This document shows positions 591-41,737 of a stretch of 64,000 nt of DNA, piece after piece. Location of the stretch: the NCBI GenBank assembly GCA_029448655.1, contig JACCLO010000007.1:3162001-3226000 (forward strand). The letters are read 5' to 3'. The stretch is from Wolfiporia cocos. Its lineage: Eukaryota > Basidiomycota > Agaricomycetes > Polyporales > Phaeolaceae. A program made the translations under genes and the position numbers. The notes under the pieces were generated by a model, which was given only the letters and a program-made list of their open reading frames with translations, was not told the DNA's origin and searched no databases. Numbering within the stretch: position 1 is the stretch's first letter; each line of letters starts with the position of its first letter.

Positions 591-1158
591 TGTCACGGAT
601 CACCCTTGGGGGGTACCTGCATCCCTCTCATTGTATGTATGGGCGCTGCTGCACGCGCGCGCGCCCCTCTCATCATTGTTTCCTCCTCGTCGCGCCCTAG
701 ATACTCTCACATGATCACCTGACCCAGTAGGCGCGCGCTAGTCAGGCAGCGCACGTGCCAGGTACTCACATGATAGGTCACACTTAGGTACATCGTAGCG
801 TAACATAACGGTCACTAGTAGTTACGGCGCACGGGCCCGTACTTTAGGGTAGTTAGTTCCGCTCTCACATGCATGTATATAATGTACGTCAAGATGGGGC
901 TTATCCCCATCTTTGAGATTCTCATCTATGAGCTTCGGCTCCTTTCTTTCATCGTGCGTGATGCGTCTCTGCCCCGGGGGCCATATCTCGTCTCGCTCAT
1001 CTGTGTGCTAGTCAACGACGTTGGCATATACTAAGGGAATGTTCCATCCATTACTCTAAGCCTCTGTGCTCACCTCTCGTCGACGTGTACACCGGCTTGT
1101 CAGCCGCGTATGGACACCCCTGCTGCGCAGGTCCTCACAAACATGTAAGTTTGTGACA
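591..1158 (+). repeat. E1 5' LTR
   Basis: 568-bp direct terminal repeat, TGTCAC...GTGACA. It holds a TATA box at 876-882, a GATGGGG/CCCCATC hairpin at about 893-911, and the presumed transcript start at 910. Confidence 0.92.
876..920 (+). promoter_or_regulatory. E1 TATA box, predicted start and self-primer
   Basis: TATATAA at 876-882 lies 34 nt upstream of TCTTTGAGATT (910-920). That 11-mer is the exact reverse complement of 1160-1170 beside the 5' LTR. By analogy with Tf1 it would be the first 11 nt of the RNA, folding back to prime minus-strand DNA. Confidence 0.7.
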
Positions 1159-1159
1159 T

Positions 1160-1170
1160 AATCTCAAAGA
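1160..1170 (+). promoter_or_regulatory. E1 primer-binding site (self-priming type)
   Basis: AATCTCAAAGA starts one nucleotide after the LTR and pairs perfectly with 910-920. There is no TGG start as expected for tRNA priming. Confidence 0.72.
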
Positions 1171-1853
1171 TATCTTACCTCCCCTCCGGCGCCACCTGCG
1201 CTGGGGCCGAGGGTTCTCCACGTACAGGGTGCCATGGCAATGCGGCGGGGCAGCCGACGGTAGAAGCACCGTCGGTCCGTAGTCTTACGAGCCCCCACGA
1301 AGCATTACACCAGGCGAAGTACCCGTACGGAGTGAGTAATCAAAGTCCGCCCCCCTTTGAACAATGGGTAGCGGGGTCAACAGGTATAAGCCGCGTTCAG
1401 GGCCCGCCGCCGTCACCCCGTCAGGGAATGTACGTGCGTGTGGAGGCACAGTGCATCCTCGCCATACCCCTGGGCGGCAGGAGCCAAGTCAAGATCTCTG
1501 ACCTGTGGGTATGTGAAGGGGCCCGCAAGGGTTACCCAACCCCACGCCAACGGTCCCAGAGTGGCGAAAGTACAACACGGACTACCGCGACGACGATGCC
1601 GAGATTAGGCAGACGACGGTACACGGGGACAGGGGACCCCACTTAAAAACAACCCAGTCGCTTACACAACGAATACCGGTACGGTACCGAAATCGTCTCC
1701 TCCGCTCTCCCACCGGTGGACGGTCCACCTGCGCGGACGCTCCCCATCTTCCGTCAAGTAAGAATGGGCCGTGCATAAATAAAGACCAAGGGATGCAGCG
1801 CCGTAGAAGCTAGGTAGAAAGTCGGGACGACTTTTTTTGAAGAGGGGGGGTAA

Positions 1854-2421
1854 TGTCACGGATCACCCTTGGGGGGTACCTGCATCCCTCTCATTGTATG
1901 TATGGGCGCCGCTGCATGCGCGCGCGACCCTCTCATCATTGTTTCCTCCTCGTCGCGCCCTAGATACTCTCACATGACCACCTGACCCAGTAGGCGCGCG
2001 CTAGTCAGGCAGCGCGCGTGCCAGGTACTCACATGATAGGTCACACTTAGGTACATCATAGCGTAACATAACGGTCACTAGTAGTTACGGCGCACGGGCC
2101 CGTACTTTAGGGTAGTTAGTTCCGCTCTCACATGCATGTATATAATGTACGTCAAGATGGGGCTTATCCCCATCTTTGAGATTCTCGTCTATGAGCTTTG
2201 GCTCCTTTCTTTCATCGTGCGTGATGCGTCTCTGCCCCGGGGGCCATATCTCGTCTCGCTCGTCTGTGTGCTAGTCAACGATGTCGGCATATACTAAGGG
2301 AATGTTCCATCCATTACTCTAAGCCTCTGTGCTCACCTCTCGTTGACGCGTACACCGGCTTGTCAGCCGCGTATGGACACCCCTGCTGCGCAGGTCCTCA
2401 CAAACATGTAAGTTTGTGACA
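1854..2421 (+). repeat. E1 3' LTR
   Basis: 568-bp copy of the 5' LTR, preceded by a purine tract and followed by the TAAAG target duplication. Confidence 0.92.
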
Positions 2422-2516
2422 TAAAGCCCGGCTTGGCCCGCCCCGAGAAGGGCCTGGCTCAGCTCGGCTCACAGCCCAAAGCCGGGCCTGGCACATCGCT
2501 AGAGCTAGTGCACTGA

Positions 2517-3072: not shown

Positions 3073-3310
3073 TGTCACAGGCAAGACGTGACTCATGCTT
3101 AAACTCACACTAAGTGCTTCTAAAGCACCCTCTCTACAATCACCTATGCTCACTACACAGTGCCATTACTGGCAGCTAGGATATATATGTATAAACGCTA
3201 TGATAATATATATAGGGGGTAGAGCACATGGTTCAGACCTCATTCTGAACTTGGCACTCTTCCGCCCGCCTCACCCCAGTTAGCTCTGTGGGCTATAGGT
3301 GGTATTGTCA
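3073..3310 (+). repeat. EA 5' LTR
   Basis: 238-bp terminal repeat TGTCAC...TTGTCA, matched by 5982-6001 plus 6551-6768. Confidence 0.88.
3207..3252 (+). promoter_or_regulatory. EA TATA box and self-primer
   Basis: TATATATA at 3207-3214, then 35 nt to ATTCTGAACTT (3242-3252), the exact complement of the 11 nt at 3312-3322. Confidence 0.68.
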
Positions 3311-3311
3311 T

Positions 3312-3322
3312 AAGTTCAGAAT
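3312..3322 (+). promoter_or_regulatory. EA primer-binding site (self-priming type)
   Basis: AAGTTCAGAAT one base after the 5' LTR, perfectly complementary to 3242-3252. Confidence 0.7.
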
Positions 3323-5981: not shown

Positions 5982-6768
5982 TGTCATGGGCAAAATGTGA
6001 CTGTTACAGATTGAATATCCATTCAGCTGAATTAACTAAGTCGAGTTACTCAGCATATCAAGTAGCACACTACTTGTTGGACTCAGCAGAGTCAGAGTGT
6101 TGATATACAAGCTGCAGGCTTAATTTGCTTAGGCCTTTGAGAACGAGTATAAGATCCTTGTAATTCAACAAGGTCAAGCTGAGGAACTCGACCGGTATTT
6201 ACATCAGGTTATATACTGCAATCCTATAAATGGGGTCATAGTGTCCGTGGTACTGCTACCAGTAAGTCCATAAGGCTAGCATGCTAGTAAGACAAATACG
6301 AAGTGTTGCAGTTGAGCGCAACAAGAGGTGAAATGTAGGAATCCTCTGGTTAGACAGATGTTATCAACTAGAACCTGATATGGTGCAAGACTATGGGCAT
6401 AGGGTTGTTGTACATGAAACGAGGACCACCGGTTGAGTGGGGTCCCCTAGAACAGAGCACGCGATGAAGCGGTTGAACGCTAAGTCCCTCTCTCTAGTGA
6501 GGTGTTGGAAAAAGATATTCAAGCGTACCAGCACAGACCGTAGCAGTGACTCATGCTTAAACTCACACTAAGTGCTTCTAAAGCACCCTCTCTACGATCA
6601 CCTACACTCACTACACAGTGCCATTACCGGTGGCTAGGATATATATGTATAAATGCTACGATAATATATATAGGGGGTAGAGCACATGGTTCAGACCTCA
6701 TTCTGAACTTGGCACTCTTCTGCCTGCCTCACCCCAGTTAGCTCTGTGGGCTATGGGTGGTCTTGTCA
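5982..6768 (+). repeat. EA 3' LTR, interrupted
   Basis: The LTR runs 5982-6001 and 6551-6768 around the solo LTR at 6002-6545 and its GTGAC duplication. The same sequence is uninterrupted in the 5' LTR near 3087-3095, giving an empty-site control. Confidence 0.88.
6002..6545 (-). mobile_element. Solo LTR (E5-related family C)
   Basis: 544 bp, TGTTACAG...CCGTAGCA, with perfect target duplication GTGAC (5997-6001, 6546-6550). Orientation is inferred from E5: the CAACAAGGTC-type core near 6167 is the reverse of the E5 self-primer, so the parent element read on the minus strand. Probably formed by LTR-LTR recombination. Confidence 0.85.
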
Positions 6769-8109: not shown

Positions 8110-9318
8110 TGTTATGGTCTATGCACATATTACTGATTTTCTCTGATGCCTCACTGTATGACAAGGCTTTCTGTTATGGGTTGTATACCCATTCGCTATA
8201 TTCGAGTTGTGAATATAAATCTTCTGCAACAAGTCCTGCAGATGTGTGCAAGGCCCATCTTCGTATAAGCCTTCAGGTCCTAGGTCAACGATCTTAGGAG
8301 TTCGTTGGATATTCAATACACATTAGAGAATATAATCTGTTTCAAGAGCAAGTCTGTATTATGAGACTTGCCTAAGTCTGAGAAGCTAGTGTGCACTTTG
8401 AGGATTTAGTCATTTCAGAGCTTGTTGGATACTGAGCATAGCTTCCTACATTTGAGAATGGGTATAAGACTTCTTGTTTATACAACAAGGTCGAGCTGAA
8501 GAGCCTCGACACTAGTTACATGAGTTTATATACTACACAAGGTTTTAATAGTCTTGTCAGTCCCAGATGTCACCACTACCATCTACGCTATAGTCTGAAA
8601 TGTATGATAGGTATGTAGTGATATATCTGAAGCAATAGATAGTAATGATATGGCAGTTGAATGCCATCTGTCAATCGGCAAATGATAAAGATGAAACAGG
8701 GCAGAGTTGGATCTGCTGGTCTGTGTCAGACCCTATATGCTAGTACAACCAGGGTTAAGCCCAGTAGAGTCACAAGTAGCCAGGGGGGTTGGTTGTGCAA
8801 CAGGTCCCTGTATCATATTCACCCAATGGTGAGTTCTGCGAGTGTTCAAAAAATAAAACAACCATAACACTTAGTGTTCAACCACCTCACTGCATGCTTT
8901 ATTCTAGAAACCTCTGTCCAACTGGGGACCCTCATTTCATGTCCAATGCCCTATGCCCATATGTTTCAGTCATATCATGTTCTAGCCTGTATTCTGTGTC
9001 TAACCACAGGGGTTCTTATGTCTCAGCCTCTGTTGCACTTAACTGCAACATTCTTATCTGTCAAGATAGCCTACTAGCCTTATGGATGTAGTAGCAGCAG
9101 CACCGAGGACACTGTGACCCCAGTTGATAGGTAGTGGTATATAATCTGATGTATATACTGGCTGAGTTCCTTAGCTCGACCTTGTTGAAATTACAAGGAT
9201 CCTACACTCATTCTCAAACTTAGGAAACTAAGCTCCAACTTGTATATCAAGACTCTGACTCTCCAGTACCAACCATGGAGATTGCAAGTAGTGTGCTACT
9301 TGACCTGCTAAGTAACTC
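8110..9318 (+). mobile_element. Family C LTR, interrupted and truncated
   Basis: The left part 8110-8171 and the right part 8870-9318 align with the solo LTR at 58249-58790 and are split by another LTR (8172-8869). A TATA box near 9143 and AGCTCGACCTT at 9173-9183 mark the promoter and self-primer region. The 3' end is lost at about 9318, where sequence beginning TGTCACAG takes over. Confidence 0.65.
8172..8869 (-). mobile_element. Solo LTR of the E5 family inserted in a family C LTR
   Basis: About 698 bp, TGTTATGGG...CCATAACA, a CpG-depleted relative of the 708-bp E5 LTR. Flanks CTTTC and CTTAG are a likely decayed target duplication, because the uninterrupted family C copy has CTTAG here. 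Confidence 0.7.
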
Positions 9319-10348: not shown

Positions 10349-10721
10349 TGACACAAGCAACACTTCAAGCAACTACTCAGGGGATTGTTACTCGCGTTTC
10401 AGCGCAATCCTAGTCTGAGGCTACTCAAGGCGTATAAGGCCAAGACGAGTCTGGGGTGCTACCCTGCTCGTCGGCCCGTATATATGCTATTCTACTGTTT
10501 GTACATTGTTTGGCTACTGTATAGTTATTACGTAAGCTGAGAGTCCGATACTATGGTAAACCCTATAATGGGTGTAGGTACACGGCACAGAGTGTCCGGG
10601 GGGCTGGCAGCACGTGATAGGGTGCTCGGGGTCTTGCACGTGACTACTTAGGCGCGCGCTTAGATAAGATAAGGGTTTAGGCTCTAGTCACTGGCTAGGT
10701 GAAAGAAATCGGCTTGTGACA
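10349..10721 (-). repeat. E2 3' LTR
   Basis: On the minus strand TGTCAC...GTGTCA, 373 bp. The gag-pol stop codon (10684-10686) lies inside it. Confidence 0.93.
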
Positions 10722-13700
10722 GTACCCCCTCTTCTAGCTGCGTGTCCCCACGCCCAGCAATCACTTTGCAGAGGTTTTGGTCGATTTGACAGGGATGGTC
10801 GTGTTCGTGTTTCTGACAGATGTGTGGATTTGCCATCTGTATGATATACTGTACGGGATAGATCCAACCCGGGTTGTTGGGTATCGTGGACTCTATGCAT
10901 TGTCCCACTTGTATTCCATATTGTATTACACGAGTCCTCGGATTGCAAAACCAGAGGTTCCTGGCGACGAGTTGTTTTGGGTAAATATAGAAGGGGATTT
11001 TTGCATCCTTCAATAAGTCGATATCTACGTCGTCGTGGATGATGAATTCGTTCGGGTTTTGCCTGAGTCCCATGGCAATGGATTTCTTTTCGAAGTCTTC
11101 CCACTCCGGGTCCCACTCAGTATGTCTATTTTTCCACTGGTGGCCTGGAGCGGTTGGTCTTTCTTCGAAGAACTTGGTTACTAAGTCCTGCCAGGGAGTC
11201 AATCCGCGTTTCCTTTCCCATGTCGTAGTCCCATCAGACCATTCGACTTTCAGCTCGACTCGCCCTCGGTCTTCTCTGGATGCAAGGATCCTGAGAGGCC
11301 TGCGAGCGTCATTGCTTTCCGTCCGTTCGTTATGGTTCTGATTGGGGAAAGCCGGAGCATGATACGGTAGTAGTAGGACTTCGTTGAATACAGGGTATAT
11401 GCCTCGCATGTCTGCGGGCAAGTCCAGTTCGTATGCTCCATGTCCGACTTTCTTGGTGACCTTGTACGGGCCGTACCGCTTCGAATCGAGTTTCTTCGTG
11501 GGGTTTCCCATGTTAATGTTTCGCCCATCGACCCAAACCATGTCTCCCTCGTTGTAGGTGTGAGGGTTGGTTCGTTTCCGATCGTAGTATTCTTTCATAC
11601 GAAGTTTGGCTTTCTCGAGATTCTTCGAAGCGGTTTGGCTGACCTCGTGCATGTGTTCGACCCAGTCCTTGGCTGCTCCCACCCCCTCTTCCAGCTCTGG
11701 TGCCTCCATGCCTGTAAATGGGTGGTATCCGTGAGTAAGGTAAAAGGGGCTGTAGCCCGTGCTACTATGTACATGACACTTGTACGCGAATGCTGCTAGC
11801 GGGAGTAAGTCCGGCCAGTTGGTATGTGTGTTGTTGATAAATAATCGTAGGTATACCTCCAGCTCCTGGTTCATACGTTCCGTCTGCCTGTCTGTTTGTG
11901 GGTGGAACGCGGTGCTGGGGTTTCCCTCGATGCCTAGTCTACGGTATACATCTTTGATGAAGTCTGATACAAACTGTGGTCCTCTGTCACTAAATACTTT
12001 CTTTGGTAGTCCATGCTGTGCGTATACTTTATCTACAAATATGTTGGCCCAACCTTTGGCGGTTAGCTTGGTTGTGGTTGGGACCGCAATGTAGTCCTTG
12101 GATTTCATGTCTACAACTACAATAATAGCGTCCCGACCCTTGGATACTGGGAGTCCCGTGATCATGTCGACGGAAATGTTCTCCCAGTTGTGCGCGGGTG
12201 TTGGATTTGGGTTCAGTGGTGCAGCTCTTTTCGAGCGGTCTGGCTTGGTGCGTTGGCACTTGATGCACGCCTTCACGTATTGGCGTATGTCGTTTCACAT
12301 CTTTGGCCACCAATACGAGCGGTGAACGGCGGTGTACGTGTTTTCTGTGCCAGGGTGCCCTGCCGAGACCGTGTTGTGGAATGAAGAAATGATTTTTCCG
12401 ATTAATTCCTCGTCTCTCGGAATGATCAACTTCCCCCTCCTGTAGCATAGGCCGTCCTCGGCCGTTTCCACTGATCCTTCTACTACCTCCTTGTTGTAGA
12501 GAGCGGCTTCCGCTTTGACCCTTTCTTTTACCTCCTCGTGGGTGATCCCGTGAGGTAGGGTATAGAATGAGGATCTCAGCCTTTCTGCGCTGTCTTTGGC
12601 GAAGAGGTGTTCCTTCAGGACGATCTGTCCTTCGAGGTGATTCTTGTTGTCGTTGTGATTGCCTCTTCGGGATAGGCCGTCTGCCCTTCCATTGGTCTTC
12701 CCGGGGATGTGCACGAGTTGTAGGTCATACTCGGCAAGTTCCGTCATCCACCGGGCCTGTCACGGATTAATCTTCTGTGGGGTCTTAAAGTATTCTAGAT
12801 TCTTATGGTCCGTTAATACTTCTACAGGGTGTTTGGCACCCATTACAAAGTGCCGCCATTCGTCCAGGGCACGTATTATAGCCAGTAGTTCGCGGTCGTA
12901 AATCTCGTAATTTCGTTCTGCTGGTAGTAGCGTCTTTGAATGGTACGCTATGGGTTTCCAGATGCCGTCCTGGTTCTGCATGAGGCAGGCTCCAGTTGCG
13001 AAGTCTGAAGAGTCTGCCTCGATGCGGAACGGGTCATCATCGTTTGGTATCCCTAGTACAGGTGCTGTGACGAAGATGTTTTTTAACTTGTCGAAGCATT
13101 CCTGTTCTGCCGCGCCCCATTGCCATTCTCCATCTTTGGTTAGATTGATAAGGGGGCGCGCTACCGTTGAGAACTTTGGGATGAATCTCCGGTAGAAGTT
13201 GGCAAATCCGATGAAGGATTTTACTTCTTTCTTGTTCCGAGGTGCTGGCCATTCGGCTACTGCAGCAACCTTCGCGGGGTCCATGCGGATTTCCCCGTGA
13301 GAGATTATGTGCCCTAAGTACTCCACTTCGGATTTCTCGAACTCGCATTTCTCTGGTTTACAGGTTAGCTTATTTTGACGGAGAACCAAAAGAACCTTGC
13401 GCAGGATCTCTCTATGTTCTTTCTGGTCTTCCGTGAAAATAAGGATGTCATCCAAATATACAATGACCTTCCCCGTGAGGACTAGGTCTCTAAATATGTC
13501 GTTCATCAAGGTCTGGAACGTGCCTGGTGCATTGCACATTCCGAAGAACATCACTAATGGCTCGTAGAGCCCTCTATTAGTGATGAAGGCGGCTTTTTCC
13601 TCGTCGCCTTCCTTGATTTGGACGTTGGTGTATCCCCAACGAATGTCAAATTTAGAAAAGTACTTAGCGCGTTTTAGCTTGTTGAGCAGCTCCGTGATGA

Positions 13701-16700
13701 GTGGGAGCGGGTACTTGTTCTTTTTGGTCATCTGGTTCAACTTTTGATAGTCCTGGATAGGGCGTAGCTTCCCATCCTTCTTTTTGACAAAGAAGAAGGG
13801 TGCCCCCCATGGTGACTTCGATGGGCGGATGCGGCCCGTGCGCAGTTGTTCTTCTAGGAAATCGTCCAATGCTTCTTGTTCTCTAGGTGAAAGGGCGTAA
13901 ATCTTGCCTGCGTATGGTTCCAAATTGGGGAGAAGTTCGATGGCGTGATCCCACGGTCGCCGTTCCGGGAGTGTGTCGAATTCCTTTTCCTCAAACACAT
14001 CTTTGAATTCGTGTAAGTACTCGGGTACGACCTCCTCGAACGTCTTAGCTTCCGTGGTCTTGCCAGTCGCGATGGCGATTTCGGTTGCCTTCGTGGCGCG
14101 GACTCGTTTGGCGATGTCCGCTCTGCACTCGTCCCTGTTTCGGATCCATGCGTCAGCGAAAATGTAGTAAATGTGATCACCGTCCTCGATCTGCTCGTGT
14201 TCGCAGTCACAAGAGAACGTGATCCGTCGCTTCTTCCAGTCGATGGAAGGGTTGTGGTCTTCGAGCCAGTCGAAGCCGAGAAAGATGTCCGCAGAGCTGA
14301 GTTCCGTGACGTGGAACTTGCGGGTTTCCAAGTGCGTATCGATCTGCATTTGGAGCTCGACATAGTGCGTCATGAGCCCCATGCTGTTGGTTGATCCGTC
14401 TGCGTTGAACAGCTTGATAGGGCGGTCCAATGGGATCTGCTCGAGTCGGTGTTCCTCCACGTAGGACTTACTGATCACCGATCCAGTAGAACCGGAATCG
14501 ATGAGAGCCTTTGTGAAGAGGGCATGTCCGTTGGGGCGGTGGAGAGTGATCGGTACTTCGATCTGCTTTCCCCGTTTTCCCGTCTGGATGACCACTACAC
14601 TTCCCCTGAGTTTCTCACCAGTTGAGCCGAAACCCTGTGTCCCTCGTGCGGTTTCGCGGGTCGACTTGACGATCTTGGTGTTGGGTGTCATATTGCATTC
14701 GAGTATGAACTGGGCGATTCTGTCCCCATACTCGACCTGATAATCTGCTCCGGTCTGATTATTCAGTATGACTTTTACTCGGCCGGTGTAGTCTTCGTCT
14801 ACTACACCGCCTTCCACGTCGACTCCCTTGAGGGCGAGTCCAGACCGTGGAGCGATACGTCCGTATACACCGGCTGGCATCCTGATCTTGATGCCAGTAT
14901 CTACGGTGATACGTTTCCCATTAGGAACGACGACCTCCTCCGCGGAGTAGAGGTCGTACCCAGCGGCACCTTCGCTTTTGCGCTCAGGTGGGATTGCCCA
15001 CAGGTGGTCTAGGTAGATGTCGAGCGTGACGGTCTTTTTCTTGACGCGTCTATGCCGCACTTTCTTTTCTGATTTTTTAGTGGTACCTGATGCGTCTGCC
15101 ATTTCCACATCAGGTGTCACTACCGGGTCCACATCCATCGGAACATATGTTACATTAGCATTGGAGGAATTAAGCACGGTATTTGCCTCCCGCCATGCTC
15201 CAGTGGGAGGCGCCTCCAAGGCTGTTACAAACGAGTCCTCGGAGCATGTTGAAGCTCCGTCGTCGTCGTCTATGTCCGATTCTACAGATGCCAGAGGTAC
15301 AGATACTGGTTCTAATATCGGGGCCCCGGTCTCTAGCCCATATAGTCCATCCACCGGTTCGTCGTTCTCCGTGGCAGCCGAGTCACTTTTTTTGGAGTTT
15401 ACTGGTTCTTCTACTTCCAATACTGAAAAGCGATTTGAGGGGGAGGGACTTACCTGAGTGGGCGTGAACCCGGCTTCCTTCACGGCGTCAGGGTTCTCCT
15501 TGGCCCAGGCGGCCACCATTCGGACAAAGTCCTCCTGGGGGATCTCGCCAAGGACCTTGGGAGCTTCGTTCCCTTCGATAGCCTGCCGGGTTCGTTGTGT
15601 TCCGGATCCACTGGCGGCGGGGGTGGTGTTGGTCTTGGGCCGCCAGTTCGGCTGGTGCCAGGATGTCTTGGTGCATCCTTTGCCAGGTGCCTCAGCCTGT
15701 GTCTTGCTGCAAGAGTGGCACTTCCTCTTGAGCAGGTTCGCCCTTTCTTCGGCTGTTGGCTCCGCTCGGGGAGCGCGCTCAGGCTTAGCACGCTCCTTGC
15801 CCTTGTCCGTGGTACCCTTGGTGCTCCGCAGTTTTTCCTCGTCCCGGAGTCGACGCATCGCATTGTCGGTCCAGAGGATGGCCTGTTTCCAGGATTCGTA
15901 ATCCTCCGGAATCTGGATGTTGTACCCGCGCTGCGATTTGTCGTTGACAGTGGCGGCGACGAATGCCTGGTGAACCGAGGAATAAATGTCCTTGGGGATG
16001 GCCCTGGTGACCCAACTGTGGACCACCTGGTTTTCCCGGTCATACTTGGCTTCTCCCAGGAGTCGCTCTAGCTCCTGGAAGTATTCCTCGCTTTTACCAA
16101 GCGTCATGGTGAGTCGCTCCGCCGCTACTGCCGCCTTTTTCTCCAGGTCCAGGTCGTCGAACTTTTGGTGCAGCTCCCAGATGAACCGTTGCCAGCTGAT
16201 TCTCCATTGCCCTCCCAGGTAGTGTTCCCTGGTGAACGCCGTTACCCACGAGTCGACTTTGGGGCCGCGGATCAACGAGACAGCCGCGCCCACCTTTTTT
16301 GAGTCGGTGAAGAGGATGGGGGCGTTGTCGTCGATGTACAGCTGAAGTCGCATGTACCAGTCTGTGAATCCGGTGCCGGTGAAGGCTTCCGGTTCCCTGA
16401 CCTTGGACTTGTACCGGGGGTCTGGCTGTGGTTCAGGCAGCATGGAGTATGCGTCCCATTGCGACGACGCCGGCTTCATTGGCCTCCACATAGACGCATG
16501 AGTTCCCTGGAGAGGCGCGGCTCCCCAGGTGTTCACGGGTGCATTCTGTGTTGGCAATGGGTGACCGAACATGTTGTGCGTCGGTGGCGGACGGACTGCC
16601 TGGGCGAAGTTGTCGGGACGAACGGGGGCTGGGGCTGTGAGTACCGGTGGCATGTAGCCGGGCAGGAATGGGTTCGTCTGCCGGGAATTTCCACGAGTCG

Positions 16701-18133: not shown

Positions 18134-18516
18134 TGTCACGGGCAAAAGCTTTCCCTAACGACAACGAGATCGATCCGGTCCCCCGAGTCCCCAAGCCCAG
18201 CCAGGCCCGGATCATACCATGGAAGGAGCCCAACAACGCCTAGATAACGACACAAGGCCCGGTTCCCACGCGGCCACGATGACCGCTACGCATTTGATAT
18301 ACCTTACACTTCTATGTTTCAGAGTCTGGCTTAGACCCCTACCTTAGTCTCGCACCAGACTCCCTAGTTACCATATACGGCCATTATAGTACAAACATGT
18401 ACAAACAGCCTATTAGTATAATAGCAGGCCTCGTTCAGCTGGTAACCCCAGTCTGAACTTGGCGTTCATCCACTTCGCTCCCCTCAGTTCGCTCTAAGGT
18501 TTTAGTGGCCTTGTCA
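18134..18516 (+). repeat. E3 5' LTR
   Basis: 383 bp, TGTCACGG...CTTGTCA. It contains the TATA box at 18417-18423 and the self-primer at 18450-18460. Confidence 0.95.
18417..18460 (+). promoter_or_regulatory. E3 TATA box and self-primer
   Basis: TATAATA at 18417-18423 is 33 nt upstream of AGTCTGAACTT (18450-18460), the exact complement of 18518-18528. Confidence 0.72.
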
Positions 18517-18517
18517 T

Positions 18518-18528
18518 AAGTTCAGACT
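18518..18528 (+). promoter_or_regulatory. E3 primer-binding site (self-priming type)
   Basis: AAGTTCAGACT one base after the LTR. It pairs over 11 nt with 18450-18460, and pairing stops at the twelfth base. Confidence 0.75.
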
Positions 18529-25541: not shown

Positions 25542-25814
25542 ATAACGACACAAGGCCCGGTTCCCACGCGGCCACGATGACCGCTACGCATTTGATATAC
25601 CTTACACTTCTATGTTTCAGAGTCTGGCTTAGACCCCTACCTTAGTCTCGCACCAGACTCCCTAGTTACCATATACGGCCATTATAGTACAAACATGTAC
25701 AAACAGCCTATTAGTATAATAGCAGGCCTCGTTCAGCTGGTAACCCCAGTCTGAACTTGGCGTTCATCCACTTCGCTCCCCTCAGTTCGCTCTAAGGTTT
25801 TAGTGGCCTTGTCA
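25432..25814 (+). repeat. E3 3' LTR
   Basis: 383 bp, matching 18134-18516 base for base by eye. It contains the gag-pol stop codon at 25539-25541. Confidence 0.95.
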
Positions 25815-25857: not shown

Positions 25858-25868
25858 AGACTCGTCTT
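25858..25868 (-). promoter_or_regulatory. E2 primer-binding site (self-priming type)
   Basis: On the minus strand AAGACGAGTCT, one base after the 5' LTR, exactly complementary to the LTR 11-mer at 25963-25973. Confidence 0.73.
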
Positions 25869-25869: not shown

Positions 25870-26242
25870 TGACACAAGCAACACTTCAAGCAACTACTCA
25901 GGGGATTGTTACTCGCGTTTCAGCGCAATCCTAGTCTGAGGCTACTCAAGGCGTATAAGGCCAAGACGAGTCTGGGGTGCTACCCTGCTCGTCGGCCCGT
26001 ATATATGCTATTCTACTGTTTGTACATTGTTTGGCTACTGTATAGTTATTACGTAAGCTGAGAGTCCGATACTATGGTAAACCCTATAATGGGTGTAGGT
26101 ACACGGCACAGAGTGTCCGGGGGGCTGGCAGCACGTGATAGGGTGCTCGGGGTCTTGCACGTGACTACTTAGGCGCGCGCTTAGATAAGATAAGGGTTTA
26201 GGCTCTAGTCACTGGCTAGGTGAAAGAAATCGGCTTGTGACA
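25870..26242 (-). repeat. E2 5' LTR
   Basis: 373-bp copy of 10349-10721, followed by the TGGGT duplication. Confidence 0.93.
25963..26006 (-). promoter_or_regulatory. E2 TATA box and self-primer
   Basis: On the minus strand TATATA (26005-26000) lies 32 nt upstream of AGACTCGTCTT (25973-25963), the complement of the site at 25858-25868. Confidence 0.7.
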
Positions 26243-33275: not shown

Positions 33276-33983
33276 TGTTACGGGTCGAATACCCGTTCGT
33301 ATATTTGAGTTGCGAATATAGATCGTTCTTCTGCACGTAGGCACGTCGCCGTATGCAAGGCAAATACTCGTTAGATGCCTTCGGATCCTAAGTGAAGTCC
33401 TTAGGAGATCGGTTAATATCCAATGCGCGTTAGAGGATATAGTCTGTTCAAGTGCGAGTCAAATAGAATATAAGACTCGCCTAAGTCCGAGAAGTCAGTG
33501 TGCACTTCGAGGACTTAGTCGTTCGGTTGCTCGAGTGAGAAATACTGAGCGTAGTTTCCTACGTTTGAGAACGAGTATAAGACTTCTTGTTTATACAACA
33601 AGGTCGAGCTAAAGAGCCTCGACAATAGGTACATTAGTTTATATACTACGTTGGGTTTCAGGGGTCAAGTCCGTCCCAGATGTCACCGATACTACCTACG
33701 CTATAGTACCAAACGTTTGATAGGTATGTAGTGATATACCTGAGACGATAGATAGGAATGATGGCGGTTGAACGCCATCTATCAGCTAACAAACGATGAA
33801 CATGAAACGGTGGCAGAGTTGGATCTGCCAAAGATGAAACGCGCCCTATAGACTAGTACAACTGGGGATGCGCCCAGTAGAGTCTCGAGTAGCCAGGGGA
33901 GTTGGTTGCGCAACAAGTCCCTGTATCGTATTCGCCCAGTGGTGAGTCTGGTCGATATTCGAAAAATCAAAATAACCGTAACA
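33276..33983 (-). repeat. E5 3' LTR
   Basis: 708 bp. The pol stop codon (33995-33997) lies 11 bp outside it. Confidence 0.93.
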
Positions 33984-33994: not shown

Positions 33995-36900
33995 CTAAGC
34001 ATTTGTCGGCCTCGACGAATTTTCCAAGTTCCCCTCTTCAGAGTGCCTCGGCGTCCTGTTCGTTGTAGATGTCGCCGTTCCCTCTGAAGGACGGGGTCGT
34101 AGGAGTTCGCCATACGAAGTGTTGGCGGCATTCATTCTGTCAATGACCTGGTTGATTGAGCCCACAAGTTCTGCAAATATAATCGGGGCAGTCGAGGATC
34201 CAGTGGTTAGCGGAACCACATTGTCAACACGGCTGCTCGGGTGAGGGCCTCGCTGGTACCCGGAGGGAAGGGATATCGCGGAGGTATTCGTTATGTTGGT
34301 ACCTCCAGTGGTGTGCGGCTCGGTGAAGGTTTCGTGCGGCCCATGTTGGTAGGGAGGCGGTGTCTCGTTTGTGCTCCCTCGCACCTCGCTCAAACTCCTC
34401 GCGGGTAATACTCTGCACTGAAGGAGATCGTCGAATAGGCGGCGTGCTATTCGCTCTTCGCTGTCGCGCTGGGGTATCCCTAGGGCTCGTCGGGCGTGCA
34501 GGTGGTTCACGTCTCCCGTTGCCTCCCATACCAGAAATACGTGGCGTCGGGTCTCTAACTCCTGTTCGGCGGGCCCTCTGAGTCTCGGTAGGCAACGGAA
34601 ATAATACTCTATCGCCCTCCATAAAATCAAACGGCCTTGCAACTCGGCGTCGTTCGTCGGGGGTGAAAAAGCGGGCGGGTCGCGGTGTGTATTCGGGTCG
34701 ACCGGGAGCAACGTGCTCGCGATCCTCGAAGTCGTTGAGCGCGTGTCGTAGTCGGGCCGTCGTAGTGGCGGCCAATCGGTCGATAAGTCTGTCGGTGAGT
34801 AGCTCGAGTCCCTCTCTCTGCGCTCTGATCTGCCCCTCCATTCGGACGAGGTCCTCGGTGATGTTCTGGTACGAGCTGTAAACGTGGGTGAGGTCCTGCG
34901 CGATGTCGAAGAGGGCCGACCAGCCATCGGCTCGGCCAGCAAAAGGTCCCTCGGCCCTGTACCAGAGGAGGGCGTGTCTAATCTGCAGATGCTGGGGGGA
35001 GTACCTTCTTGGTGGCGTACCTCGCGGTCAGCCTTCTCGACGATTTGCATCGTCGGGGGTCGTGGTACGGCGGGGAAGCTGGTGGCGAGTCGTCGACATA
35101 CTATTACTGTTCTGTTTTCGAGTGTCGGGGTTGTCCTGACTCTCGTCCTGTGGTAGTCTTTTATCAGCTCCTTGGAATGCTCCAAGTTCGCCTCGTCTTC
35201 CCAAGAGTTGTCGGCCGTGGCATAGCCTTTCCACTTGACGAAGTATTGATGCTTCTTTCTTTGCCATCTGTCAGCCAAGATGGCTTCGACTTCGTATTCT
35301 TCTTGCCCCTTGATGATATCAGGTGGCGGTCGTAGGTAATTGGGTCCGTGTACCCTTGTTTCTTTGAACGATTTTAGTAAGGCAGCGTGGAATACCGGAT
35401 GAATTTTCCAATTCGCCGGTAACTGCAGCCGGTATGTCGTGGGTCCCATCTTTTCTGTGATGGTGAAGGGTCCTTCTCTTTTTGGTGCCAATTTGTTCGA
35501 TTCATAGGGGATTGTTAGGTTCTTGGCGTCGAGCCATACCTTGTCCCCTTTCTCAAGCCTTGGCAGTCCCCTAAGGAATCGCCCTGCCATTCTTTTCTGG
35601 GCTAATTCATGCGCGATGAATGCCATTTTTCGCGCCTCTTTGATCTTCTTGATCCTGTCGACCGCTGCCGGAACGTTCCCTACTCTGTCATAGTCTGGGA
35701 ATCCTCTCGGGATGTATCCTAAGATTATTTCGAGTGGCGCTGGCCGATTTTCGGTTCGTCTGGTGTTGTGCGCAAATTCGACGTCAGGCAATCGTTGTAC
35801 CCATTGGAACGGGTCGTTCATGCAATAGATGCAAAGGTATACTTCGATCTGTTGATTCATTCTTTCTGTCTGTCCGTCGGTCTGTGGATGGTACGCCGTA
35901 CTCATCGCTGATTCTGTTCCCTGCAGCTTGCATAATTCCTTGAAAAGCTTTGATGCGAACTGCGGTCCTCTGTCTGAAATGATCTTTCGGGCGATGCCAT
36001 ATAGCGAGTAGATTTTTTGGTGAAATATCTCTGCCGCCCCTTCGCTAGTGATCGTTTTGTCGCATGGGGTGAGAGAGATGGCCTTGGATAGGCCATGGTC
36101 GACAATCACCATCATGGAGTCATACTTTCCGACTCTTGGCAGGTCGGTGACAAAATCGACCGAGCACTGTGAGAAGGGGAGGGCGTCTTCCCGTGTCGGT
36201 ATTGGTTGCAAAGGGGGTTTCAGCGGATTCCTATCAGGTTTCATCTGTTGACAGATTGCACAGCCCCGGACGTATTCCGCTATCATTGTTCTCATGTCAG
36301 GCCACCAAAAGTGGGTCGTAACCTGTACTGTTGTACGCCAGATCCCAGGGTGTCCGGCCGGGATCGTGTCGTGGTATTTTGAGATGACGTCCCATCGAAG
36401 GCCCTCGTCCCTTGGCACGTACATCCTGCCCCTGTAGAGCAGTATCCCATCCGTTTGTTGCCATTCATCTGCGGTGGTTCTCGCGGGGAATTCACCTGTG
36501 CCCCCTAGAGCACGGATCGCCTGTTCCGCAGATTCATCTTGATCGTTGGCGTTCTTGATTCGATCAACGATCGGGATCTGGATTGCGTGGACAACGAGTT
36601 CGTCTGGGATCATGGTGATTCCCTCATTGTCTTCGTTGTTTTCGTCCAGGTGGTACAACCTGGAAAGTGTGTCGGCCATGACTAGTTTCCTTCCAGGGAC
36701 GTGCTGCAATTTCAGGTCGAATTGCGAGAGGAATAGATGCCATCTCGCTTGTCGCCGATTTAGGCGCTGTGCGCTTCTCCAGTACGTCAGGTTCTGATGA
36801 TCGCTTCGGATCAAGATCCGATGTGGTGCTCCTTCCAATAGGTGCCGCCATTCTTCTAAGGCTCGGACAATTCCGAGTAGTTCGCGATCGTAGATTTCGT

Positions 36901-38131
36901 AGTTCCGTTCTGTTGATGTCAGGGATTGTGAGAGATATCCCACCGGCCGTTCGTGCCCTGTTTCATCTATCTGTTTCAGTACTGCTCCTGTGGCGAATTG
37001 AGATGCGTCTGTTTCGAGGATGAACGGTTTCTCCTTGTCTGGTGTTCCTAGTGCGGGCGCCGTCGTGAATGCTTTCTTCATGAATTCGAATGCTTTCTGT
37101 TCTTTCTCCGTCCATTGGAACCCTGTCCCTGTGACCGTTTTTGTGAGGTCTACCAAGGGTCGGGCGTGCGTAGAGTAGTGATCGATGAATTTCCGATAGA
37201 AGTTCGCAAATCCTAGGAAGGATCTGACTTCTTTGAGATTTCGGGGAGTCGGCCACTCCTTAATCCCATTGAGTTTCGCTGGGTCCATCTGGATATTTCC
37301 TGAGGTGATGACTAGTCCCAGAAATTCGACTCTGTCGACACCAAAGGCGCATTTCTCGGGTTTCACAAAGAGATGGTTATCCACCAATCTCTGAAGGATC
37401 CGCCGCTCCCGTTCCTTGTGTATTTTCTCGTCTTCTGAGAAAATGAGGATGTCGTCCATATAAACAAGCACCCATCCTTCGAGGATCTCTTCTTTCAGGA
37501 TTTCGTTCATCATTGCCTGAAAGGTTCCGGGTGCATTGCACAATCCGAAAAACATAACCGTGGGCTCGTACAACCCTCGGTTTGTTTTGAAGGCCGCTTT
37601 CCATTTGTCTCCCTTTTTGATTCGCACGTTGTTGTATCCCGCTCTAAGGTCCATTTTTGTGAAGATCCTTGCTCCTTTTAGCTTTTCCAGGAGCTCTGAG
37701 ATCAGTGGCAAGGGATAGACGTTCTTTATCGTCCCTTCGTTCAGATATCGATAATCTTGACAGGGTCGTAGGCCGCTGTCTTTCTTTGGGACGAAAAAGA
37801 ATGGTGACGCCATCGGGGATTTTGAAGGGACAATGAATCCCTTGGCCAAGTTTTCTTTTAGGAATTCATCCAGCGCCTGCTGCTCTTTAGGCGAGAGTAC
37901 ATAGACTTTGCAGTCTTTCGGCACGAAATCGGGTTTTAATTCGATTGCATGGTCCCATGGTCTCGACGGGGGGAACGCTGCTGCGGACTCCTTACTGAAC
38001 ACTTTGGCGAAGTCCAGTAGGTGTTTCGGGACCATCTCCTCAATCGTTCGTTCTGGTTCGGGGGTTTTCTGTGCGAATTTCTGGGATTTCGTCAGCGCTT
38101 TCCTGACAGCGTTGATGATTTGTATCTTTGT
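33995..38131 (-). CDS. E5 pol: RT-RNaseH-integrase-chromodomain and long C-terminal extension
   Basis: Frame open from just after the TGA at 38132-38134 to the stop at 33995; the first ATG is at 38035. RT with YMDD near 37467-37456; RNase H (ETDASQF) near 37010; integrase zinc region (HPGIWRT to CAICQQ) near 36380-36250; DDE core (SVDFVTDLP, ISDRGPQF); then a well-formed chromodomain near 35290-35150 (EAILADR, YFVKWKGY, SWEDEANLEH), the module that directs insertion to modified histones in chromoviruses. The following 390 residues are Ser/Arg/Thr-rich and, at least between 35030 and 34600, overlap a better-looking frame. The true C-terminus of pol may therefore be nearer 35100. Confidence 0.88.
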   Translation of the reverse strand, partial: TKIQIINAVRKALTKSQKFAQKTPEPERTIEEMVPKHLLDFAKVFSKESAAAFPPSRPWDHAIELKPDFVPKDCKVYVLSPKEQQALDEFLKENLAKGFIVPSKSPMASPFFFVPKKDSGLRPCQDYRYLNEGTIKNVYPLPLISELLEKLKGARIFTKMDLRAGYNNVRIKKGDKWKAAFKTNRGLYEPTVMFFGLCNAPGTFQAMMNEILKEEILEGWVLVYMDDILIFSEDEKIHKERERRILQRLVDNHLFVKPEKCAFGVDRVEFLGLVITSGNIQMDPAKLNGIKEWPTPRNLKEVRSFLGFANFYRKFIDHYSTHARPLVDLTKTVTGTGFQWTEKEQKAFEFMKKAFTTAPALGTPDKEKPFILETDASQFATGAVLKQIDETGHERPVGYLSQSLTSTERNYEIYDRELLGIVRALEEWRHLLEGAPHRILIRSDHQNLTYWRSAQRLNRRQARWHLFLSQFDLKLQHVPGRKLVMADTLSRLYHLDENNEDNEGITMIPDELVVHAIQIPIVDRIKNANDQDESAEQAIRALGGTGEFPARTTADEWQQTDGILLYRGRMYVPRDEGLRWDVISKYHDTIPAGHPGIWRTTVQVTTHFWWPDMRTMIAEYVRGCAICQQMKPDRNPLKPPLQPIPTREDALPFSQCSVDFVTDLPRVGKYDSMMVIVDHGLSKAISLTPCDKTITSEGAAEIFHQKIYSLYGIARKIISDRGPQFASKLFKELCKLQGTESAMSTAYHPQTDGQTERMNQQIEVYLCIYCMNDPFQWVQRLPDVEFAHNTRRTENRPAPLEIILGYIPRGFPDYDRVGNVPAAVDRIKKIKEARKMAFIAHELAQKRMAGRFLRGLPRLEKGDKVWLDAKNLTIPYESNKLAPKREGPFTITEKMGPTTYRLQLPANWKIHPVFHAALLKSFKETRVHGPNYLRPPPDIIKGQEEYEVEAILADRWQRKKHQYFVKWKGYATADNSWEDEANLEHSKELIKDYHRTRVRTTPTLENRTVIVCRRLATSFPAVPRPPTMQIVEKADREVRHQEGTPPSICRLDTPSSGTGPRDLLLAEPMAGRPSSTSRRTSPTFTARTRTSPRTSSEWRGRSERRERDSSYSPTDLSTDWPPLRRPDYDTRSTTSRIASTLLPVDPNTHRDPPAFSPPTNDAELQGRLILWRAIEYYFRCLPRLRGPAEQELETRRHVFLVWEATGDVNHLHARRALGIPQRDSEERIARRLFDDLLQCRVLPARSLSEVRGSTNETPPPYQHGPHETFTEPHTTGGTNITNTSAISLPSGYQRGPHPSSRVDNVVPLTTGSSTAPIIFAELVGSINQVIDRMNAANTSYGELLRPRPSEGTATSTTNRTPRHSEEGNLENSSRPTNA
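34224..35099 (-). pseudogene. E5 extra ORF overlapping the pol 3' end
   Basis: A second minus-strand frame starts at ATG 35097-35099, crosses one TGA (35028-35030) and stays open to 34224. Its middle looks like real protein where the pol frame looks compositionally random: HALLWYRAEGPFAGRADGW, then a helical, coiled-coil-like segment (MEGQIRAQREGLELLTDR at 34841 downward), then a basic Arg/Pro-rich end. I recall similar small coiled-coil ORFs behind pol in other basidiomycete chromoviruses but cannot confirm it here. Function unknown; a structural or nucleic-acid-binding role is only a guess. Confidence 0.55.
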
Positions 38132-39046
38132 TCAGAACTTCTTTCGCGTCTCCTCTTTCTTTCCTATGATCCTAGGGTTATCTTTTGCGAAGCGTCGGAT
38201 CGCTTCGTACTCCTCGGGAGTATAGAGCCGCTGCGCTGTTTCTTCTGGCTGGTCTGTGGATCCGAATCCTTTCTCCCCTCGTTCTGTTTCGTCTAGGTCT
38301 TCGACCTCTAAGATGTCGGGGGTGAGGTGTCGTTCGAAAATTATCTGGGCTATTCGCATGCCCGGGATAATTCTGTGTGCTTTGTCTGAGTAGTTGAAGA
38401 CGATGGCTCCGACGTCTCCTCGGTAGTCCGAGTCTATGATTCCAGCCTGTACTACCAATCCGTGTCTGAGGGTGTTGCCTGATCGTCCGGCCAACCTTCC
38501 ATACGATCCCTTCGGGATCTTCATTTTTACTCCTGTGGAGACGAGTTTCCATCCTCCGGTGGGAATCTCGGTTTCTTCTGCGGCGTAAAGGTCATACCCT
38601 GCAGCTTCTTGGGTTCCCCTTGTTGGAATTTTCCCTTCTGGGGCAACTACCATCTCCACCGTATCCATTCGGATCGTGGCTTCCTGTTTCTTTTCTTCTG
38701 CCCCTAGTATTGATCGTACATCGACTGTTTGGTCCTTCCAGTCGATTGTGGGGTTTTCGTCTTTTAGCCATCCATACCCTAGAATCATATTCTCTGTTCC
38801 GATTGATCCTACTAGGAATCGGACCTTTCGCGTTTTCTGGGTCTTCGGATATCGTAGTAGTATGGTGGCTTCTCGGTCTATTCGCCCATCTTTGTTTTCT
38901 GTTCCGTCAACATTTTTGACGATGATTGGGTTCTTCAAGGGTTGCGTGGGCACCTTGTATTTTTCTACCACTCTGCTGTGGATCAGGTTCGACATTGCTC
39001 CTGAGTCGATTAGTGCATTGCACTTCACGGGTTTTGCCAGCGTCAT
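38132..39046 (-). CDS. E5 protease-dUTPase region of pol, ends at in-frame TGA
   Basis: 304 codons from ATG 39046; the frame is open upstream to the gag overlap. Retropepsin DSG at residues 14-16 with the partner MILGYGWL at 87-94. dUTPase at residues about 128-265 with five motifs (GYDLYAAEE, AGRSGNT, GIIDSDYRG, MRIAQII, GFGSTD). The TGA at 38132-38134 is in frame with the downstream RT frame, so it splits one pol product; CGA to TGA is the likely origin. dUTPase would lower dUTP during cDNA synthesis. Here it lies after the protease, the reverse of E2 and E3. Confidence 0.88.
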   Translation of the reverse strand: MTLAKPVKCNALIDSGAMSNLIHSRVVEKYKVPTQPLKNPIIVKNVDGTENKDGRIDREATILLRYPKTQKTRKVRFLVGSIGTENMILGYGWLKDENPTIDWKDQTVDVRSILGAEEKKQEATIRMDTVEMVVAPEGKIPTRGTQEAAGYDLYAAEETEIPTGGWKLVSTGVKMKIPKGSYGRLAGRSGNTLRHGLVVQAGIIDSDYRGDVGAIVFNYSDKAHRIIPGMRIAQIIFERHLTPDILEVEDLDETERGEKGFGSTDQPEETAQRLYTPEEYEAIRRFAKDNPRIIGKKEETRKKF

Positions 39047-39135
39047 GATTACCGGGACGAAGAGGGATCGATTCTTCTCGAACGAGGTAATTACATGTGC
39101 TGCTTTCTCGGAGGGTAAGACCGTGGGCTTCCCTC

Positions 39136-40983
39136 CTAGGCAAAATCCTGTTCTTCTACGAGCCGTGCTAGGAGTCCGGGGTTCTTGGCTTTCAGAGCCC
39201 TAATTGCTGTGACCGCTCTGTTGGCGGTGATGTCTTCAGTCTCTTCCTCAGAGACTTCTTCAATGCGAGCTTCTTGCTCGGCTTCTTCTTCTTCGGTTTT
39301 TCGAGTAGTCCGCCTAGGGCGGGCTGGCTTCCTCGGCCTCTTCGGACAGTCTCGCGACATATGTCCTGGCTGATGGCAGGTGAAACATTTTCCCTTCTTG
39401 ATGTGATCGACCCTTTCCTGGGTGGTCATTCGATCTACATCCATCGCATTCGGATCTTTCGGTGCGGTTGTCTGCGGAGCACTAGTGCGTCCGTTATTCT
39501 GGTTCGAGGCTTGCCAAGCCTTTTTCTTGACAAACGGTTTGTCCCGTTTCAAAAATATCTTGTACGTATTTTCATAGTACGAGGCAGCGGACTGCCATTC
39601 ATCAATGGTCGCTGGTAGCGGACGAACGCCGATGATGTATCGGGTCGTATGTTCGGGTAACCCTTTTTCGAAGAGGGTTATGAGCAACGCGTTTCCGTCC
39701 GCGCTGTATCGATCGTACTGGGCCTTCCCGGCCAAGTTGTTGAACTCGGTGATATAATCATCGATGTCCTTTCTGTCCTGGGTTACGTCCAGGATCTTCT
39801 TCCGCGCTTTCTGTACCTCTTCGATGGCTCCGAAGGCTTTCTGGAAGTCTGCATCAAACTGTGCAAGACTAGGCGGGAAGAATCGTTTCGTCTGGGGGTT
39901 CGTATAAACCCGGTGATAATTCTGTTTCCATTGGCCCGTTTTCCCCTTGTTCAAAATATAAGAGAGGATAAAGATCACTCTCTGAACGTCGTTTTGGAAT
40001 GACGTTTCGTACATCGTAAACCAGGAATTGCACTGGTTTATGAAGTTCTGCATGTCGGATCGTTCCCCATCGAATACGTCTGGGGGATTGATCTTTATCA
40101 TCGGGGGTCGGTAGTACGGGTTCGGCGCCGGAGGTTGAGGCTGCGGCGCATTCGGTGGTGGAGGCCCTCCTGGGGGCCCTCCTCCTCCCGGGTATCCTCC
40201 ACCCGGGTTTCCTGGGTTTCCTCCGGGGTTCCCTGGGTTTCCTCCAGGGTTTCCTCCTCCGGGGTTCGCGGGGATTCCTCCTCCGAGTCCTCCAGGAGGG
40301 GGGGCATTCCCTCCTCCGAGTCCGAAGTTTCCTCCCAGTCCTCCTCCGCTTGTACCTGCGGAGGTTCGTCCAAATAGGCCTGAAGGCCATGTTCCTGGGT
40401 TTGTCGTTCCCATTCCTCCGCTTGGGCTAGTCCAAGACGGATTTCCTCCGCTACCCATTCCGGGTGCGTTCTGTGGGGGGCTTCTAAAGAGGTCTGTTCC
40501 TCCAGCCATAGGTCCAACCCCACTCTGCACAAAAGCAGATATAAATCCTGGAGGGTCCTGTCCTCCGGTCTGGCTGTTATCTGTTCCTGTAAAGTTTCCA
40601 GGATTTCTCCCATCATCTCCGATGCGCTCAATTCCTGCCATTCCTGTGGCGCCCGAAGGCTGATTCGTATTTCCATCGGCATCGAAGGTTCTGTTGATGG
40701 TTTCGGTTTCGTTTTCGGTCAACGTCGCGGTTGACATCGGAGGGATTTCTCCGAATTGTTCGAACGCTTCACGCGTTATTTCCCAAGCGGTCGTTCTTGC
40801 GGAGGGGTATACTTCTACCCACTTCGATGCCCTATCTTCTCTTGGAATGACAACAATTCCTCCGCGGTTACGGAAGGCTCCAATGGTGTCAGTCCACTCG
40901 TATCGGTGGAGTCTGTATACTCCCTGAATGTCCTCGGGCAAGAGTTCAATCAGTCGTGCTGGGAATTCTGGTCCAAATATCAT
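39136..40983 (-). CDS. E5 gag
   Basis: 615 codons from ATG 40983. A Gly/Pro/Asn-rich spacer (about residues 195-290) leads into a retrotransposon gag core (FDGERSDMQNFINQCNSWF to LPEHTTRYIIG). A classical zinc knuckle CFTCHQPGHMSRDC lies near 39400-39355, followed by a basic and then acidic tail. It ends at TAG 39138-39136. Just before the stop is GAT TTT GCC. A one-base backward slip on the TTTT run enters the frame that continues into protease without a stop. Confidence 0.92.
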   Translation of the reverse strand: MIFGPEFPARLIELLPEDIQGVYRLHRYEWTDTIGAFRNRGGIVVIPREDRASKWVEVYPSARTTAWEITREAFEQFGEIPPMSTATLTENETETINRTFDADGNTNQPSGATGMAGIERIGDDGRNPGNFTGTDNSQTGGQDPPGFISAFVQSGVGPMAGGTDLFRSPPQNAPGMGSGGNPSWTSPSGGMGTTNPGTWPSGLFGRTSAGTSGGGLGGNFGLGGGNAPPPGGLGGGIPANPGGGNPGGNPGNPGGNPGNPGGGYPGGGGPPGGPPPPNAPQPQPPAPNPYYRPPMIKINPPDVFDGERSDMQNFINQCNSWFTMYETSFQNDVQRVIFILSYILNKGKTGQWKQNYHRVYTNPQTKRFFPPSLAQFDADFQKAFGAIEEVQKARKKILDVTQDRKDIDDYITEFNNLAGKAQYDRYSADGNALLITLFEKGLPEHTTRYIIGVRPLPATIDEWQSAASYYENTYKIFLKRDKPFVKKKAWQASNQNNGRTSAPQTTAPKDPNAMDVDRMTTQERVDHIKKGKCFTCHQPGHMSRDCPKRPRKPARPRRTTRKTEEEEAEQEARIEEVSEEETEDITANRAVTAIRALKAKNPGLLARLVEEQDFA

Positions 40984-41017
40984 GGGCCCTTACACCGTGA
41001 TAGGTGAGGGTGTGATA

Positions 41018-41028
41018 AGCTCGACCTT
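41018..41028 (-). promoter_or_regulatory. E5 primer-binding site (self-priming type)
   Basis: On the minus strand AAGGTCGAGCT one base after the 5' LTR, exactly complementary to the LTR 11-mer at 41354-41364. Confidence 0.74.
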
Positions 41029-41029
41029 C

Positions 41030-41737
41030 TGTTACGGGTCGAATACCCGTTCGTATATTCGAGTCGCGAATATAGATCGTTCTTCTGCACGTAGGCACGT
41101 CGCCGTATGCAAGGCAAATACTCGTTAGATGCCTTCGGATCCTAAGTGAAGTCCTTAGGAGATCGGTTAATATCCAATGCGCGTTAGAGGATATAGTCTG
41201 TTCAAGTGCGAGTCAAATAGAATATAAGACTCGCCTAAGTCCGAGAAGTCAGTGTGCACTTCGAGGACTTAGTCGTTCGGTTGCTCGAGTGAGAAATACT
41301 GAGCGTAGTTTCCTACGTTTGAGAACGAGTATAAGACTTCTTGTTTATACAACAAGGTCGAGCTAAAGAGCCTCGACAATAGGTACATTAGTTTATATAC
41401 TACGTTGGGTTTCAGGGGTCAAGTCCGTCCCAGATGTCACCGATACTACCTACGCTATAGTACCAAACGTTTGATAGGTATGTAGTGATATACCTGAGAC
41501 GATAGATAGGAATGATGGCGGTTGAACGCCATCTATCAGCTAACAAACGATGAACATGAAACGGTGGCAGAGTTGGATCTGCCAAAGATGAAACGCGCCC
41601 TATAGACTAGTACAACTGGGGATGCGCCCAGTAGAGTCTCGAGTAGCCAGGGGAGTTGGTTGCGCAACAAGTCCCTGTATCGTATTCGCCCAGTGGTGAG
41701 TCTGGTTGATATTCGAAAAATCAAAATAACCGTAACA
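41030..41737 (-). repeat. E5 5' LTR
   Basis: 708 bp, next to the AATAG duplication. Confidence 0.93.
41354..41399 (-). promoter_or_regulatory. E5 TATA box and self-primer
   Basis: On the minus strand TATATAA (41399-41393) is 35 nt upstream of AGCTCGACCTT (41364-41354). Confidence 0.72.

Follow-up and report, generated by a model that had tools for sequence, protein, structure and literature searches.

The 64,000-nt window analysed here (Wolfiporia cocos, GCA_029448655.1, contig JACCLO010000007.1, positions 3,162,001-3,226,000 of the forward strand) contains five retrotransposons with long terminal repeats (LTRs), E1, EA, E2, E3 and E5, and the present analysis concerns how these, together with a sixth family from elsewhere in the same genome (E6, locus L113), may prime their reverse transcription. 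LTR limits were set by self-comparison, TG..CA ends and 5-bp target site duplications (TSDs). On the forward strand, E1 has its 5' LTR at 591-1158 and its 3' LTR at 1854-2421 (TSD TAAAG, 586-590/2422-2426), EA has its 5' LTR at 3073-3310 and a 3' copy at 6546-6768 (TSD ACAAG, 3068-3072/6769-6773), and E3 has identical LTRs at 18134-18516 (5') and 25432-25814 (3'; TSD TAGTG). The reverse strand carries E2, with identical LTRs at 25870-26242 (5') and 10349-10721 (3'; TSD TGGGT), and E5, whose LTRs at 41030-41737 (5') and 33276-33983 (3'; TSD AATAG) are 99.6% identical. LTR pairs that are 99.6-100% identical suggest recent activity of E2, E3 and E5. E6 has an LTR of 602 bp and the TSD CCGAG. The 3' LTR of EA (region 6531-6560) lacks the first 15 bases of the 5' LTR, yet its target duplication is intact.

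In each of the five window elements a short stretch of the LTR, the putative self-primer, is the exact reverse complement of a stretch that a single base separates from the end of the 5' LTR, the candidate primer-binding site (PBS). Primer and PBS lie at 909-920 and 1160-1171 in E1, 3242-3252 and 3312-3322 in EA, and 18450-18460 and 18518-18528 in E3 (forward strand), and at 25963-25973 and 25858-25868 in E2, and 41354-41364 and 41018-41028 in E5 (reverse strand); the insertion of E3 into E2 lies about 40 nt further inside E2 than the PBS of the latter. All five pairs of positions given in a preliminary description of the window proved to be exact reverse complements, and the TG..CA ends and the TSDs bear out the one-base distance that it gave between 5' LTR and PBS. 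It had put the length of the match at 11 nt throughout, which stands for EA, E2, E3 and E5, the match of E1 (909-920/1160-1171) being 12 nt long. In E6 the PBS follows a two-base spacer. When runs are allowed to begin 0-3 nt behind the LTR, the longest measures 12 nt in E1 and 11 nt in EA, E2, E3, E5 and E6.

Primers and sites of different families do not fit each other: cross-family runs measure 4-7 nt, except for 9 nt between EA and E3, which have related LTRs, and, in keeping with the preliminary description, no cross-family pair of LTR and downstream sequence reaches 11 nt. With 2000 dinucleotide shuffles per LTR, E5 alone reached a run of 11 nt, in a single shuffle (1/12,000 overall), and the other five families never did. 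The primers of E1, E2, E3/EA, E5 and E6 bear no evident likeness to one another, E3 and EA sharing 10 of 11 bases. As had been noted for the five window elements, a TATA box precedes the primer in all six families, starting 30-35 nt upstream of its first nucleotide (31 and 33 nt in E1; EA has further TATAs upstream). A scan of both strands of the window for complementary runs of 10-16 nt, with a gap of 25-500 nt, after CA plus 1-2 nt returned 19 runs, some of which are one inverted repeat counted from both strands; when a TATA at 28-36 nt was added, only the five elements remained. Watson-Crick pairing ends at both ends of the duplex in 8/8 versions, nt -1 being C or T and nt 1 being A. Together with the TATA spacing, these pairing ends are as expected if the transcript began at one of them and were cleaved at a defined site at the other. 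Minimum-energy folds from the start to the PBS contain the primer:PBS helix (10-12 pairs) in 6/6 families.

The complementarity recurs in other copies in the genome, from which all copies and junctions were taken. Full pairing was found in 57 of 71 LTR-PBS junctions (5 in the window, 20 fetched, 42 further and 4 E5-type). The 20 fetched 5' ends were hand-picked among the matches listed (lists of at least 150 places), and 19 are fully paired, the exception being L047. Of the 42 further junctions 33 are fully paired: 13/19 of EA type and 11/12 of the E1 lineage, both taken from the places, among the best 40 scored for each, where the match extended to the PBS or came close to it, and 9/11 of E3 type, read from 24 non-window places reaching the end of the query, the less identical being preferred (three others were already among the 20). 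In L062 the LTR is not followed by a PBS. In L047 and L063 the CpG sites of the primer now read CpA (in L047 those of the U3 arm as well), which looks like decay by deamination.

The E1 lineage provides compensatory changes, and the scan for them proposed in the preliminary description is thereby positive within the same genome. Three primer/PBS versions occur, those of E1, E1b (L089) and E1c (L090, L092-L099), each paired over 12/12 positions. An alignment of 12 rows (A3), from which the decayed L100 (9/12 paired) was excluded, has all 144/144 cells paired, with three pairs changed on both sides and none on one side only. None of 500 shuffles had as high a covariation score, which was best at slide 0, sliding the partner cutting the pairing to 33-51%. 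In E1b, which has two LTRs with 90% identity, both primer copies still match the PBS. Elsewhere, the difference between EA and E3 at primer nt 2 is compensated in the PBS, and L084, a relative of EA, shows nt 3 compensated and nt 2 unpaired; covariation is also found in the inner stems of the E2-type leader. The near-duplicates L040 and L042 were excluded from alignment A2.

We propose with high confidence that these are Ty3/gypsy elements which, judged from their sequences, use self-priming of the Tf1 type. Transcription by RNA polymerase II would begin with the first base of the 11- or 12-mer, an A lying 30-35 nt beyond the start of the TATA. The leading 11 nt of the RNA (12 in the E1 lineage) would fold back onto the PBS, which 1-2 nt separate from the 5' LTR, and cleavage by RNase H at the end of this duplex would free the RNA for extension into U5. 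As reverse transcription ordinarily proceeds, plus-strand synthesis would copy the primer into a new PBS in every round, and a change in the LTR 11-mer would in this manner be written into the daughter PBS. We infer the transcript start, the cleavage, the priming and the rewriting of the PBS from this arrangement. Retroviral PBS sequences are likewise rewritten from their primer. Such rewriting would explain both the perfect pairing despite unrelated primers and the private matched pairs of the non-autonomous E1 and EA, which, as had been supposed, would take part in the system with pairs of their own.

Could the pairing be a structural element of the 5' leader, serving packaging, dimerisation or translation control, without being a primer? 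The E2-type leader indeed forms a long stem with covariation among its inner pairs. A purely structural role, however, leaves unexplained that in 8/8 versions the duplex starts 1-2 bases after the LTR and reaches no further than the inferred transcript start, as well as the lack of any other PBS, and we consider it highly improbable.

Priming by a tRNA or an internal tRNA fragment at the PBS, the LTR 11-mer being secondary, appears still less probable. It has a counterpart in the same genome: three copia elements (L059, L060, L061) share one common PBS with a match of 14-15 nt to the anticodon arm of the initiator tRNA-Met (3/3), and these elements probably use half-tRNA priming, as far as can be told from this match. 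The same match implies that the comparison could have detected tRNA priming in the gypsy elements. Priming by the 3' end of a tRNA requires TGG in the PBS, the complement of the CCA end, and none of the six gypsy PBSs starts with it; comparison with 34 tRNA genes gave matches of up to 8 nt within a PBS, an 11-nt tRNA match in E1 falling, except for one base, beyond its PBS. Moreover, whereas the three copia elements have the same PBS despite different LTR lengths, the gypsy PBSs differ between families. Support for the claim that the gypsy elements prime without a tRNA comes from the pairing, from covariation and from the absence of a match at the site among these 34 tRNA genes. Chance, or descent from one ancestral pair, has a negligible probability: the 10/11 primer bases shared by E3 and EA speak for it, and the shuffles, the cross-family pairs, the five primers without evident likeness and the compensatory changes in the E1 lineage speak against it.

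Several observations weigh against self-priming. At least one position is unpaired in 14 of the 71 junctions, among them L075, L078, L083, L084, L087, L088, L100, L101 and L107 of the 42 further ones, and the E5-type junctions of L063, L064 (two) and L065 are all imperfect (10, 9, 10 and 10 of 11); we read the faulty copies, mostly with a single unpaired position, as decay of old copies. The 12 rows of the E1 lineage contain just three versions, one of five covariation measures (further pair types) is no better there than in shuffles (373/500), and the primer helix of the E2 group is nearly invariant, so that covariation in that group probes the inner stems alone. The tRNA comparison covers 34 genes with incomplete isotypes, several being missing (30 of 49 listed places plus four tRNA-Met genes), and in EA, E2 and E3 the duplex could gain a G-U pair at its inner end. 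Available excerpts of PMC10085805 describe a three-duplex "pretzel" leader for Tf1. Of its counterparts here, the duplex downstream of the PBS beats shuffles only in EA (10/500; others 86-457/500) and that at the end of U5 stands out in no family (36-331/500); a complete pretzel in every family was rejected, as it was only partly found in the folds.

The inferred start site is also marked by an inverted repeat. In 6/6 families an upstream arm in U3 pairs with an arm entering the primer, exactly and over 6-9 bp (10 in E1c), and stems of this length arise in 0-42 of 1000 shuffles; in E1 the U3 arm (891-899, forward strand) is complementary to a stretch ending at primer nt 5. The stem covaries in the E1 lineage, where four copies have A-U instead of G-C at one pair inside U3, and in E1b both the PBS and the U3 arm have changed along with primer nt 4 (the U3 arm of L089 is misaligned in the alignment used for stem covariation). 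In terms of primer bases paired, the own U3 is clearly the best partner in E1, E2 and E5 and tied in E3, while E6 is poor (3) and the U3 of EA pairs better with the primer of E3 than with its own (8 vs 7 primer bases). This pattern is weakened by energy-based shuffles of primer-to-U3 pairing, mostly not significant, by the LTR at 58248, with an exact stem of only 4 nt (469/1000), and by E6, whose stem lies mostly inside U3. If transcripts start where proposed, the 3' end of the RNA (U3-R) is the one place where the hairpin could form. A tentative and rather doubtful extension of self-priming is that primer and PBS are a locked, freely drifting unit to which a U3-R hairpin is added that hides the 3' copy of the primer, only the 5' end being left to prime. 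The hairpin may keep the 3' primer copy off the PBS, or may be a promoter signal or a 3'-end signal.

All four autonomous families (E2, E3, E5 and E6) encode a dUTPase according to the Pfam search, in agreement with the dUTPase-bearing lineage postulated at first; the postulate of a whole lineage extends to six families, all of this one genome. Its basidiomycete side agrees with 150 DUF6533 matches scored among 272 candidates, DUF6533 being a family typical of Agaricomycetes. The same four carry reverse transcriptase (RT), integrase and a Tf2-type SH3 domain, and the RT-RNase H-integrase order of Ty3/gypsy was found by Pfam in the families examined. In E2 and E3 the dUTPase precedes protease, RT, RNase H, integrase and SH3_Tf2-1. 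E3 has these domains in one open reading frame (ORF; 19389-25541, forward strand), with a weak Retrotrans_gag below the cut-off, and its best relative of solved structure is Ty3 Gag-Pol; E2 has them in two ORFs on the reverse strand, dUTPase-protease-RT-RNase H at 12760-17466 and the integrase core (below the Pfam cut-off) with SH3_Tf2-1 at 10684-12294. E5, on the reverse strand, has gag (39136-40989; Retrotrans_gag and a CCHC knuckle), protease and dUTPase (38132-39199; gag-asp_proteas below the cut-off) and RT-RNase H-integrase-SH3_Tf2-1-chromodomain (33995-38131; integrase H2C2 over and core below the cut-off), its dUTPase lying between protease and RT. E6 has a chromodomain and a C-terminal dUTPase. 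Pfam Chromo was matched in E5 and E6 and had no match in E2 or E3. The RTs of E2 and E3 are 85% identical and those of the other pairs 59-62%, and dUTPase identity is 67% between E2 and E3, 45-46% to E5 and 36-37% to E6. Three positions of the dUTPase in the Pol of related elements, with identity down to 36%, would be consistent with independent gains or moves. The chromodomain loci L062-L065 were ruled out as new families, all being E5 copies, and of eight stretches found in IMG/VR as relatives of the E3 RT none was confirmed.

The 695-nt interior of E1 contains no ORF of 200 amino acids, and the element is non-autonomous. EA is taken as non-autonomous because it has a single ORF of 227 amino acids without a Pfam match and because six further pairs of EA-type matches (among the best 40 scored) are spaced only about 2.2-3.3 kb apart. 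Terminal-repeat retrotransposons in miniature (TRIMs) are defined, in the accessible part of PMC6934838, by a PBS and a polypurine tract, a length below 1000 bp and terminal repeats of 100-250 bp; with about 1.83 kb and LTRs of 568 bp, E1 lies outside this definition and is TRIM-like only.

Both self-priming among chromoviruses of fungi and the presence of a dUTPase in gypsy elements of basidiomycetes are already known. Going by the excerpts consulted, Tf1 RNA is cut by RNase H between bases 11 and 12, its first 11 bases being paired with the PBS (PMC7175516), self-priming is a common feature of the Tf1/sushi group (PMC10085805, PMC6317226, PMC6934838), and it has been proposed for Tcn1, a basidiomycete chromovirus of Cryptococcus neoformans (cited in PMC7175516). 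The W. cocos elements resemble Tf1/Tf2 and Tj1 in having, just after the 5' LTR, a PBS complementary to the inferred transcript start in the LTR (PMC7175516; Tj1, PMC4600332, both as excerpted), and the Tf1/sushi group in their SH3_Tf2-1 domain and, in E5 and E6, their chromodomain. They differ from Tf1/Tf2 and Tj1 in their dUTPase, in having several primers per genome, a 12-nt version and primer-to-PBS gaps of 57-325 nt, and in that E2 and E3 are without a chromodomain match. In the PosPlaTy3 elements of Postia placenta, basidiomycete gypsy elements, the dUTPase is N-terminal in Pol, lies between protease and RT, or is C-terminal (PMC2864245, in part), and E2/E3, E5 and E6 fit these three places, a likeness by description and not by sequence; the available text on PosPlaTy3 makes no mention of priming. 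For Tcn1, likened in the same way by description, the accessible part of PMC7175516 mentions no dUTPase. The combination of dUTPase-bearing basidiomycete elements with self-priming was not met in the open-licence literature, nor were co-drifting non-autonomous members or an inverted repeat at the start site; the non-autonomous elements with private co-drifting primers and the inverted repeat at the inferred start site are possibly new. One fungal genome would harbour several self-priming families with unrelated primers, small non-autonomous ones included, beside copia elements that apparently use half of the initiator tRNA-Met. The compensatory changes are evidence for self-priming outside fission yeast, and the likely transcript start and cleavage site are marked to the base from sequence alone. 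The arrangement suggests why PBS finders based on tRNAs would report no PBS for such elements, and it raises the questions of whether the PBS is rewritten from the primer in each round and how the 3' primer copy is kept out.

The 11-mer is also retained in four LTRs of the window that no PBS follows. An E5-related LTR (78%) at 8172-8869 (reverse strand) keeps the E5 11-mer at 8487-8497, an E3-type LTR (91%) at 57567-57951 (reverse strand) has its 11-mer at 57623-57633, and an LTR at 58248-58790 (forward strand) has the E5 11-mer at 58612-58622 with a TATA upstream. The fourth, an LTR ending at 58872, contains an E2-like 11-mer with one base different at 58965-58975 (reverse strand), with TATA 31/33 nt upstream. 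The preliminary description had seen the complete layout in the LTRs at 58248 and 58872: the TATA 31-35 nt before the 11-mer was found in both and a PBS follows neither, so that half of the layout is confirmed.

Outside the window, many small contigs (C38, C49, C30 and others) show an identical-scoring chromodomain match at a spacing of about 72,030 bases, and the part of C38 that was read (L115) is an E5-type copy. These 72-kb contigs represent a repeated or circular unit; no Rfam match was found in 13 kb of them, and their identification as mitochondrial was withdrawn, as the genome gave no COX1 match. Within the window, the region 50300-53300 consists of dense repeats with a 22-base step, plus larger duplicated blocks.

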